A stretch of 64,000 nt of DNA, taken from positions 62,001 through 126,000 of the forward strand of contig NZ_FNHP01000002.1 in assembly GCF_900103645.1 (NCBI RefSeq), in the 5' to 3' direction. A model generated the notes under the pieces. It saw only the letters and a list, made by a program, of their open reading frames with translations, made no database searches and was not told the origin of the DNA. The translations under genes and the position numbers were made by a program. The DNA comes from Oryzisolibacter propanilivorax (GTDB taxonomy: Bacteria > Pseudomonadota > Gammaproteobacteria > Burkholderiales > Burkholderiaceae_C). The stretch's first letter is position 1. Each line of letters begins with the position of its first letter. Shown piece after piece: positions 23,298-25,467 of the stretch.

Positions 23298-24076
23298 CCC
23301 TGTCCCACCTGGACGCCCGCCAGCGCGCCATGCTGCAGGAAATGGGCATTGCCCTGCCGCTGCTGCAGCCGGCCCGCGCCGAGCGCGGCGCGCCGCCTGC
23401 AGCGGCCGGGCCGGCTGACGCCGCACCGGTTGCTGCCGCGCCACTGGCCGAAGAGGCCAGGGCCGGTGCGCGGCGCCCGGCCGGCACGCCGGTATCCGAT
23501 GCACCGCCGCCCGCTCCGGCGCAGCAGCAGCCAGCCGCCCCTGCCGCGGCCCGCCCGGCAGACGCCGCCCCGGCGCCTGTCGGCGAAGTGCTGCTGGGCC
23601 CGCTGCTGGCGCCCTACGCGCAGCAGGACGTCCCGGCCCCGGCCACCGGCGGCTGGCTGGTGCTGCTGGAATGTGCCCAGCCGGGTGACCCGCTGGCGGG
23701 CGACGCCGGCCGGCTGTTGCACCACATGCTGCGCGCCATGGGCCTGCACCACCAGCCGTGCACGCAGCTGGCGGCCCTGCTGCCGTCGTCCGCCCCCGCC
23801 AGCGCGCCGGGCCGGCCGCTGGCGCAGGTGCTGGCCGAACGCCAGCCGTGCATGGTGCTGCTGCTGGGCCTGGGTGCGGCACGCGCGGTGCTGGGCAGCC
23901 CGCAACCCCTGGCGCGCCTGCGCGCACGGCCGCACCGGCTGGCGGACGGCACGCCGGCGGCGGTCAGCCACGACCCGGCCTACCTGCTGCTCGCGCCCCA
24001 GGCCAAGGCTGGCGCCTGGCTGGACCTGTGCCGCGCACTGGCGCGGGTGCGCCCCGACAGCACCGCCCCCGGCTGA
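23294..24076 (+). CDS. Uracil-DNA glycosylase superfamily-like protein
   Basis: Protein of 260 residues: a low-complexity Ala/Pro-rich linker (about 30-95) followed by a domain resembling the C-terminal half of family 4 uracil-DNA glycosylases (MVLLLGLGAARAVLG, then a SHDPAYLL segment like the family's YHPxxLL motif). The N-terminal catalytic part of the fold is not evident, so glycosylase activity is doubtful. It overlaps rimI by 4 nt. In E. coli rimI is paired with holD, the clamp-loader psi subunit; whether this protein plays such a role is speculation. Confidence 0.6.
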   Translation: MTLSHLDARQRAMLQEMGIALPLLQPARAERGAPPAAAGPADAAPVAAAPLAEEARAGARRPAGTPVSDAPPPAPAQQQPAAPAAARPADAAPAPVGEVLLGPLLAPYAQQDVPAPATGGWLVLLECAQPGDPLAGDAGRLLHHMLRAMGLHHQPCTQLAALLPSSAPASAPGRPLAQVLAERQPCMVLLLGLGAARAVLGSPQPLARLRARPHRLADGTPAAVSHDPAYLLLAPQAKAGAWLDLCRALARVRPDSTAPG

Positions 24077-24120
24077 TCGCCCTTCGGCCCGCGCAGCCCG
24101 CCGCGCAGGCCGGCGGATGC

Positions 24121-24126
24121 CATAAT
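24121..24126 (+). promoter_or_regulatory. corA: Possible corA promoter (-10 box CATAAT)
   Basis: CATAAT followed by TTCACG lies 177 nt before the corA ATG, in the style of other -10 boxes here. No good -35 is visible. It would place the whole hairpin region within the corA leader. Confidence 0.35.
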
Positions 24127-24134
24127 TTCACGTT

Positions 24135-24165
24135 TGCCGCGCACGCCGTGCGCGGCACATTTTTT
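24135..24165 (+). terminator. Hairpin with T-tract upstream of corA
   Basis: TGCCGCGCAC-GCC-GTGCGCGGCA followed by CATTTTTT. It is either the terminator of the tsaB-rimI-UDG-like unit or an attenuator early in the corA leader, depending on where corA transcription starts. Confidence 0.7.
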
Positions 24166-24187
24166 CGCACCCACACCTTCATCCGCC

Positions 24188-24251
24188 ATGGAAAGCTGCC
24201 CGAGTCGGTAGCTTTCAGCCTCCCGAGCTGTCGCCGGTGCGGGCTGAAAGC
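24188..24251 (+). promoter_or_regulatory. corA: corA leader: mini-ORF over mutually exclusive hairpins
   Basis: Three segments compete: GAAAGCT (24191-24197) pairs with AGCTTTC (24210-24216) as one hairpin, while GCTTTCAGCC (24211-24220) pairs perfectly with GGCTGAAAGC (24242-24251) as an alternative. A seven-codon frame (MESCPSR, 24188-24211) covers the first hairpin. A C-rich, G-poor stretch (24251-24285) follows, like a Rho-loading site. Regulation of corA by this region is inferred. Confidence 0.5.
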
Positions 24252-24297
24252 GCCCCAGCCCCACCCGCACACGCCAAGAACACAGGGAGAGTGAGCC

Positions 24298-25284
24298 ATG
24301 CTCAACATCTTTTCGCTCGCCAATGGGCGACTGGTCCAGGAAGAGATCGAATCGCTGGAGGAGCTCAAGCGCTTCCAGCCCATCTGGGTCGATCTGCAGT
24401 CGTCCACGCCCGAGGAAAAGCGCTGGGTCATGCAGCACTACGGCCTGTCCATCCCGGCCGACGTGATGGACGAGGACATCGAGGAATCGGCGCGTTTCTA
24501 CGAAGAAGACAACGGCGAGCTGCATCTGCGCAGCGATTTCCTGGTCGATGACGACGAGGAGCCGCGCAGCGTGCGCGTAGCCTTCATCCTGAACCAGCAC
24601 AACGCCGAGCTGGCCAGCTGCGGCGTGCTGTTCTCCATCCACGACGAGGACATTCCAGTGTTCCGCCTGCTGCGCATGCGCGCGCGCCGCGCCCCGGGCC
24701 TGATCGAGGACGCCAAGGACGTGCTGCTGGCGCTGTTCGACACCGACGTGGAATATTCCGCCGACACGCTGGAGGGCATCTATGACGACCTCAAACAGGT
24801 CAGCGAGCAGGTGCTGGAGGGCAGTGTCACCGACGACTACGCGCAGACCGTGCTGGCCGACATCGCCTGGCAGGAAGACCTGAACGGACGCATCCGGCGC
24901 AACATGCTGGACACGCGCCGCGCGGTGAGCTTCATGATGCGCAGCAAGATGCTCGGCGCCGAGCAGTTCGAGGACGCGCGCCAGATCCTGCGCGACATCG
25001 AGTCGCTGGACAGCCACACCCAGTTTCTGTTCGACAAGATCAACTTCCTGATGGACGCGCTGGTGGGTTTTTTGAACATCAACCAGAACAAGATCATCAA
25101 GATCTTCTCGGTGGCCAGCGTGGCGCTGCTGCCGCCCACCCTAATCGCCAGCGTCTACGGCATGAACTTCCGCGTCATGCCCGAGCTGGAGTGGAAGTAC
25201 GGCTACGTCTACGTGCTGCTGCTGATGGTGGCCAGCGCCGTTGGGCCAATGCTGTATTTTCGCAAGCGCGGCTGGTTGAAGTAG
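24298..25284 (+). CDS. corA: Magnesium and cobalt transport protein CorA
   Basis: Pentameric Mg2+/Co2+ channel of the inner membrane (328 residues). A large cytoplasmic N-terminal funnel is followed by two C-terminal transmembrane helices; the selectivity motif GMN is at residues 288-290 (ASVYGMNFRVMPE), and the protein ends with basic residues (FRKRGWLK). The ATG at 24298 follows AGGGAGAG about nine bases upstream. A long structured leader precedes it (see the leader feature). Confidence 0.97.
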   Translation: MLNIFSLANGRLVQEEIESLEELKRFQPIWVDLQSSTPEEKRWVMQHYGLSIPADVMDEDIEESARFYEEDNGELHLRSDFLVDDDEEPRSVRVAFILNQHNAELASCGVLFSIHDEDIPVFRLLRMRARRAPGLIEDAKDVLLALFDTDVEYSADTLEGIYDDLKQVSEQVLEGSVTDDYAQTVLADIAWQEDLNGRIRRNMLDTRRAVSFMMRSKMLGAEQFEDARQILRDIESLDSHTQFLFDKINFLMDALVGFLNINQNKIIKIFSVASVALLPPTLIASVYGMNFRVMPELEWKYGYVYVLLLMVASAVGPMLYFRKRGWLK

Positions 25285-25411: not shown

Positions 25412-25467
25412 ACCTGAATTGGGGTCAGATTCCAATTAGCGCCTGAATGGGGCTCGGACTCCAATTG
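25412..25467. repeat. Tandem REP-like units (GGGTCAGATTCCAATT type)
   Basis: Two degenerate direct copies of about 28 nt, the first with AATTGG...CCAATT arms around GGTCAGATT. The same sequence recurs at 38287 and, partly, at 37822, near the broken RAYT transposase. Confidence 0.7.

Follow-up and report, generated by a model that had tools for sequence, protein, structure and literature searches.

The corA locus and its leader

The window, the whole stretch of DNA analysed here, covers 64,000 nucleotides of the Oryzisolibacter propanilivorax genome, and its nearest named relatives (Comamonas, Acidovorax, Variovorax, Hydrogenophaga and others) place it in Comamonadaceae. The leader elements and corA lie on the forward strand. 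The Mg2+/Co2+ transporter gene corA occupies positions 24298-25284; it was assigned by a match of its product to the TIGR00383 corA profile (231.8 bits, cut-off 200.75) and by 44% identity to E. coli CorA. The last gene of the upstream set, ending at 24076, has weak similarity to uracil-DNA glycosylases, and two further upstream ORFs are presumably tsaB-like and rimI-like. Two more CorA-family matches are located outside the window in the same genome (G000:C8:37494-38405 and G000:C6:603355-603933), one of which scores above the TIGR00383 cut-off.

The corA leader carries an extended -10 promoter element, TGCCATAAT, at 24118-24126, from which transcription is predicted to start near 24133. A hairpin resembling an intrinsic terminator, made of 10 pairs followed by six T residues, is found at 24135-24165, between the -10 element and a mini-ORF at 24188-24211. 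The mini-ORF (ATG GAA AGC TGC CCG AGT CGG TAG) encodes the candidate CorL-like leader peptide MESCPSR, and lies over the first arm of hairpin A, in which 24191-24200 is joined to 24207-24216 by 10 pairs, including one G-U; this is where the original prediction had placed it. The elements are ordered as segment 1 (GAAAGC), segment 2 (GCTTTC), an anti-Shine-Dalgarno sequence (anti-SD), segment 3 (GAAAGC), a C-rich stretch and the Shine-Dalgarno sequence (SD) of corA. Hairpin A joins segments 1 and 2, and hairpin B segments 2 and 3; in B, positions 24211-24220 (GCTTTCAGCC) and 24242-24251 (GGCTGAAAGC) are perfectly complementary to each other. Since both hairpins use the same strand at segment 2, A and B compete, and their predicted mutual exclusion is borne out by the sequence.

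The MFE fold contains two additional helices. The second of these, D, was not part of the original prediction, nor were the extended -10 element and the terminator-like hairpin. Helix C pairs parts of 24227-24246 with 24256-24274, and takes up some of the 3' arm of B. In helix D the anti-SD CUCCC (24220-24224) is paired by computation to the corA SD GGGAG (24285-24289), located 8 nt before the corA ATG, which is thereby hidden. A, C and D are nested and can form at the same time, with the SD covered, while B competes with them: it excludes A, overlaps C in the window and crosses D, base 24220 being common to both. B and D might coexist as a pseudoknot, a kind of structure outside the scope of the folds computed here. 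The C-rich, G-poor stretch noticed earlier before the corA start corresponds to 24252-24283, with 18 C and 5 G in 32 bases; at least equally C-over-G skewed composition was found in 73 of 31,984 32-base stretches sampled from both strands of the window. This linker may be a Rho loading site or a ribosome standby stretch.

The folding energy of 24168-24300 has a z of -2.87, with one of 200 shuffled sequences folding as well. It is conservation in relatives that, at the level of sequence comparison, is decisive in indicating that the structure exceeds chance.

Conservation of the mini-ORF and of the pairing arms

A set of 110 corA loci, composed of the window and its relatives (80 named records, some species being near-identical), was read in detail. 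The mini-ORF search accepted only ATG, GTG or TTG as start, and asked for E, D, K or L as second residue and for a Pro as fifth or sixth; since these residues were imposed, the corresponding conservation counts are conditional. An in-frame mini-ORF overlapping the first arm was found in 104 loci, window included. The other six (L024, L077, L079, L089, L104 and L109, the last with 49 nt of upstream sequence only) were left out before codons were counted. Starts are ATG in 45 cases, TTG in 32 and GTG in 27, and the peptide consensus in the relatives is M-[E/D]-x-x-P-S-[R/W/C]. In the codon table, which omits 12 of the 104 leaders lying in another register, codon 5 is Pro at all 92 loci (CCG 41, CCC 35, CCT 16), and codon 6 is Ser at 84 of them, AGT being used in 61 and TCT in 23. 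Third-base freedom at Pro5, combined with the use of two codon families at Ser6, points to a coding function for the mini-ORF.

The mini-ORF stops after 7 codons in 56 of the 104 leaders and after 13-20 in the remaining 48, and residues 2-7 are alike whatever the stop position; it is therefore the beginning of the peptide, and not its stop, that is conserved. Early acidic and Pro residues are prevalent: the pattern M[DE]x2-3P[SPTR] fits 101 of the 104 mini-ORFs, a figure conditional on the search rules, and position 2 is acidic in 101. A Shine-Dalgarno-like motif was not found before the mini-ORF of the window, as in 15 of the 104 leaders. We infer that the mini-ORF is actually translated.

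A [AG]TAAT element precedes the mini-ORF in 103 of the 104 leaders, window included, and in 94 of these the distance is 24-35 nt; the extended form TGnNATAAT is present in 83 of 104. In the window, the -10 element is 61 nt from the mini-ORF. Given the regular presence of the -10-like element, transcription most likely starts before the mini-ORF.

Hairpin B is widely preserved, with at least 8 of 9 positions paired in 100 of the 104 leaders when G-U pairs are allowed and the best downstream place is taken. The starts of its arms are 25-87 nt apart in the various loci. Removal of the four leaders with fewer than 8 of 9 pairs (L036, L038, L042, L106), and then of 34 similar ones, left 66 leaders; 19 of these were dropped (L039, L049 and 17 with B-arm starts more than 48 nt apart) to build an alignment of 47. 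In this alignment 95.1% of the B cells are paired, 5 of its 10 pairs show changes on both sides, and the covariation score of 0.214 is reached by none of 500 shuffles, whose mean is 0.128. For A, 82.6% of the cells are paired and the covariation score is 0.096 vs 0.076, reached by 4 of 500 shuffles; two pairs are changed on both sides, a count reached by 262 of 500 shuffles, and one pair is broken in 40 of the 47 leaders. In 11 long-loop leaders, which mostly contain PP in their peptide, one A pair is A-U in five cases, G-C in four, G-U in one and unpaired in one. B thus covaries clearly, and A weakly. RNAalifold, applied to the 47-leader alignment, recovers B and none of A, C and D. The comparison with relatives that had been proposed for the original prediction therefore supports it, in that the mini-ORF and the competing arms are found at 104 of 110 loci and B covaries.

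Single loci show peculiar arrangements. In Tepidimonas alkaliphilus (L090) both B arms are fully changed (GGCCCGCG and CGCGGGCC for GCTTTC and GAAAGC), with pairing kept. In the window, the repeat AATTGGGGTCAGATTCCAATT is located 3' of corA, at 25417-25439; a near-copy of it lies within the B loop of L106, with a related inverted copy downstream. The B stem of L106 retains 7 of 9 pairs, and it looks as if a AATTGGGGTCAGATTCCAATT-like element had been inserted there.

Because loops vary in length, C and D were tested by partner swapping, a test also applied to A and B. For each of the four helices, none of 5000 permutations over the 66 leaders paired as well as the leaders' own partners, although the leaders are related by descent and the permutations are not independent trials; the result also holds when swaps are confined to loop-length classes. 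In six control pairings own partners never bound significantly better. In two of them they bound worse: 4869 and 4933 of 5000 permutations were as good or better for the anti-SD with the mini-ORF SD, and 4997 and 5000 for the 3' strand of C with the corA codons, so that the swap statistic is not perfectly centred. All four helices thus co-vary, A weakly. Variants of D were also recognized by eye, CUCCC/GGGAG of the window being replaced by CTCCCGGTT/AACCGGGAG in L015 and by CTCTCCCAA/TTGGGAGAG in L042, which is outside the 66. In two Polaromonas loci (L096, L098) corA starts without an upstream GGAG, and GTCAGTC is found directly before the start instead; by eye, this sequence may pair with GACTGAC of the B loop, as an alternative cover of the start region.

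Distribution and relation to known leaders

A covariance model covering mini-ORF and B, named R1, was built on 44 of the 66 leaders, ten outliers and 12 long-loop leaders being omitted. While corA relatives (E <= 1e-30) are found in 272 of 299 Comamonadaceae genomes, R1 matches (E <= 0.01) occur in 140 of the 299, from 74 of 141 genera; some of the weak ones are probably due to chance. Strong matches (E up to 1.2e-6) number 128. For 120 of them a listed corA position was available for comparison, and in every case the start of corA lies 35-105 nt beyond the match, in the same orientation. Thirty of the 150 genomes among the corA positions listed contain no strong match. The model under-counts, since two of 14 family loci without a match (L179, L186) still have a matching mini-ORF. 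No R1 match was found beside either of the two extra CorA-family genes of the O. propanilivorax genome.

In a sample of 349 genomes from the order, 22 match R1, 8 of them Comamonadaceae and 14 from other families; the latter score at most 24.6 bits, in a search whose filters lose weak matches. The two best other-family matches were taken as chance, L122 falling inside a 354-aa ORF and neither locus having, by eye, a CorA-like ORF. None of 46 regions upstream of corA, taken from other families in the order and class, contains the mini-ORF motif. The element was detected in Comamonadaceae alone and, where this could be checked, just before corA.

Rfam searches of the window and leader, and of 12 relatives, gave no leader match near the gathering score and no fitting family, and no corA leader from Comamonadaceae or other Betaproteobacteria is described among the open-access literature matches listed. 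We regard the element as a real and conserved leader switch, which matches no Rfam family and did not turn up in the literature searched.

The closest known counterparts are the enterobacterial corA leaders. A 'corA motif' with 325 representatives is described from Gammaproteobacteria and metagenomes (PMC6429828). For E. coli it is reported that corA drops when corL is translated, that Mg2+ acts positively on corL and negatively on corA, and that Rho is involved (PMC11552253). The same text calls the sensing mechanism of the corA leader uncharacterised, and describes corL as having few acidic or proline residues (PMC11552253). E. coli ysgD (NC_000913.3), which reads M-D-T-P-S-R-Y-W-L-T-I-L-S-S-R-I-N-S, is probably corL, based on its position and on a TTG start agreeing with the UUG of PMC11552253. 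In both groups a short ORF and competing structures are found in the corA leader, and the M-D-T-P-S-R start of the E. coli peptide resembles the Comamonadaceae consensus. In contrast, the ORF of E. coli is 18 codons long, its start being 208 nt upstream of corA, and its published model involves a three-way junction and Rho (PMC11552253), whereas in Comamonadaceae a 1:2:3 series of segments is combined with an SD-hiding helix. R1 detects nothing in the E. coli corA locus at E <= 1, and the published 'corA motif' consensus has no Rfam match in E. coli.

The strict motif M[DE][ST]x0-1PS[RWC] was found in one of 1407 mini-ORFs of the window, that of the leader, and in one of 501 from an 11-kb stretch of E. 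coli, namely ysgD. It occurs in 58 of 12,790 mini-ORFs from the 110 family loci, each time in a different locus, and in none of 383 mini-ORFs upstream of corA at 46 loci of other families. This rarity makes a chance likeness to CorL unlikely, although the motif was drawn up after viewing both peptides and compared with one enteric sequence. The original prediction had proposed an independent beta-proteobacterial version of the enteric logic. As to the RNA scaffold, which looks different, this may hold; it is doubtful for the peptide, with its shared M-[DE]-[ST]-(x)-P-S-R start. From sequence likeness, both common ancestry and convergence must be considered.

Other leaders share part of these features. 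In MgtL, according to PMC11282234, the ribosome is destabilised intrinsically and translation aborts at EPDP when Mg2+ is low. The first codons of the Comamonadaceae mini-ORF similarly include acidic and proline residues, and MEPDP itself is present in four of the 104 leaders, from related loci, ME-x-DP being present in eight, those four included. The mgtA leader differs in the gene controlled, and in most Comamonadaceae members a single acidic residue is combined with a single Pro; destabilisation would here be assumed by analogy. The Salmonella mgtCBR leader is also alike, since mgtP is a Pro-containing short ORF that overlaps alternative stems, and one of these stems masks the RBS of the following gene, but mgtP has 17 codons with three consecutive Pro and acts by transcription attenuation (PMC3641672).

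Attenuators of the ermC type form 1:2 and 3:4 or, alternatively, 2:3 pairings, and the SD of the main gene stays masked as long as no ribosome is retained on the leader ORF. Here too, by computation, an alternative helix, D, hides the SD of the main gene; however, the signal would be Mg2+ or ribosome stability and not a macrolide, and the main gene codes for a transporter.

A model for the corA leader and its alternatives

The effect of a translating ribosome was evaluated by computing secondary structures, without pseudoknots or kinetics, with each codon of the mini-ORF in the P site. In the ribosome-free fold of the window, from which the terminator-like hairpin was left out, A and D reach 0.92 each and B 0.00. 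When the ribosome covers 12 nt downstream, the means over the 66 leaders at codons 1-4 are 0.57-0.69 for B and 0.25-0.35 for D; at codons 5-7, B does not go above 0.20 and D is 0.57-0.63. The share of leaders in which B exceeds D is 61-74% at codons 1-4, 3-24% at codons 5-7 and 39% without a ribosome. B being favoured at codons 1-4 and D from codon 5, Pro5 lies at the computed turning point, which moves to codon 3/4 if the downstream edge is set to 15 nt. The suggestion that translation of the mini-ORF favours B thus holds, in the folds, only while the ribosome is at the first codons; once it reaches codon 5, with the 12-nt edge, the shared strand is covered and B is lost.

In the window alone the interval is narrower. 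B exceeds D at codon 3 only with the 12-nt edge (0.68 and 0.18), and at codon 2 only with the 15-nt edge (0.65 and 0.23), while at codon 1 D prevails with either (0.68 vs 0.17 and 0.46 vs 0.25, respectively); with the 15-nt edge, a ribosome at codon 7 blocks D too (0.08). The computed unpaired probability of the window SD is at most 0.15 in all states, even with D lost, because the SD finds other partners. That the SD is mostly paired in every computed state is the weakest part of the argument.

On these grounds the corA leader may be a conserved translational attenuator, in which the mini-ORF switches SD-hiding helices, a reading to which we assign somewhat less than an even chance. Segments 1 and 3, at the start of the mini-ORF and beyond it, would compete for the GCTTTC of segment 2, at its end. 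In the absence of a ribosome A would form, leaving segment 3 and the anti-SD free, so that C and D would hide the corA SD (OFF). A ribosome held at codons 1-4, nearing Pro5, would melt A and free segment 2; B could then form and compete with C and D (ON). Once past Pro5, the ribosome would cover segment 2, making B impossible, and C and D would re-form (OFF). Comparison with MgtL and CorL of enteric bacteria suggests that the acidic and proline-containing start of the peptide might slow or destabilise ribosomes at low cytoplasmic Mg2+, resulting in more CorA. Such a polarity agrees with the lowering of corA by E. coli corL. Since B outweighs D in 39% of the leaders without a ribosome, a default OFF state is not general. 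Sequestration of the SD by helix D is the best-supported output, and we infer Mg2+ as the signal, the polarity, and SD access as what is controlled. Of the readings considered, a translational attenuator read by a CorL-like peptide is the most likely, in which the seven-codon mini-gene probably decides whether the corA transporter is made.

Four other readings were weighed. A Rho-dependent attenuator, as in the enteric corA and mgtA leaders, would reverse the role of B, which would expose 24252-24283 to Rho and termination (OFF), C hiding the stretch. Helix C does pair part of the C-rich linker, and in 61 of the 66 leaders C minus G in the linker is in the top 5% of random segments from the same locus; but 32-35 nt is short for a Rho loading site, and the linker measures 32 nt in the window, with a median of 35. 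Helix D, which co-varies at the SD, would be superfluous to such a model, and A, C and D together would hide the SD, thus blocking translation as well. Rho acts in the E. coli corA leader, and in Salmonella as cited in the same paper (PMC11552253); a role for it in the present leader is possible, while the Rho-based reading as a whole is held unlikely. Still less probable is a metal-binding riboswitch or a passive fold, in which the mini-ORF would only tune initiation and the peptide would have no sensing role. Conserved folding of four helices and the possible B/D pseudoknot would suit it, and M-box riboswitches sense Mg2+ elsewhere (PMC12810186). Against it are the coding signature at Pro5 and Ser6, the overlap of the mini-ORF with the switching arm, the lack of an Rfam match, and the spacing of the B arms, which defines a variable loop, unlike a ligand pocket.

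A peptide sensing a cue other than Mg2+, for example the supply of proline or of charged tRNA-Pro (as with mgtP in Salmonella) or else its own release at the stop codon, appears improbable. Pro5 is conserved, and the Pro codons of mgtP respond to proline limitation (PMC3641672), but the conserved part usually contains a single Pro (two in the Hydrogenophaga-type), and the acidic position 2 is retained as well; the variable position of the stop makes release an unlikely signal. The hairpin at 24135-24165 raises a further alternative, specific to the genome of the window, where it might dominate so that the leader beyond it is rarely transcribed, or corA might have another promoter. Its 10-pair stem and T6 lie immediately 3' of the predicted start, and among the 103 other leaders scanned a comparable hairpin and T-run precedes the mini-ORF in just L020, where it is different and weaker. 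Conversely, a terminator so near the start may work poorly, the downstream leader elements of the window are intact, and the hairpin could belong to the upstream genes; dominance of the hairpin, or another corA promoter, is considered very improbable. The hairpin would either terminate transcription of the upstream genes or add a further attenuation step. In two loci of the same genus (L003, L004), GC-rich repeats without a T-run are found at the equivalent position.

A more speculative extension, which we think rather unlikely, is that CorL is an old, portable Mg2+-sensing peptide, its start of six or seven residues, M-[DE]-[ST]-(x)-P-S-R, being kept from Enterobacteria to Comamonadaceae while the RNA was rebuilt around it. 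If this were true, sensing would be done by the ribosome and the nascent peptide together, and the RNA scaffold would be interchangeable: Enterobacteria would use a Rho-linked junction, and Comamonadaceae a translational attenuator that has the Pro codon close to its switch point. Having a second, compact leader whose peptide begins similarly on an apparently different scaffold would help to separate the role of the peptide from that of the RNA, and the leader is short enough for stepwise mutation. As corA has traditionally been described as constitutive, control through its leader would be suggested for a further large bacterial group.
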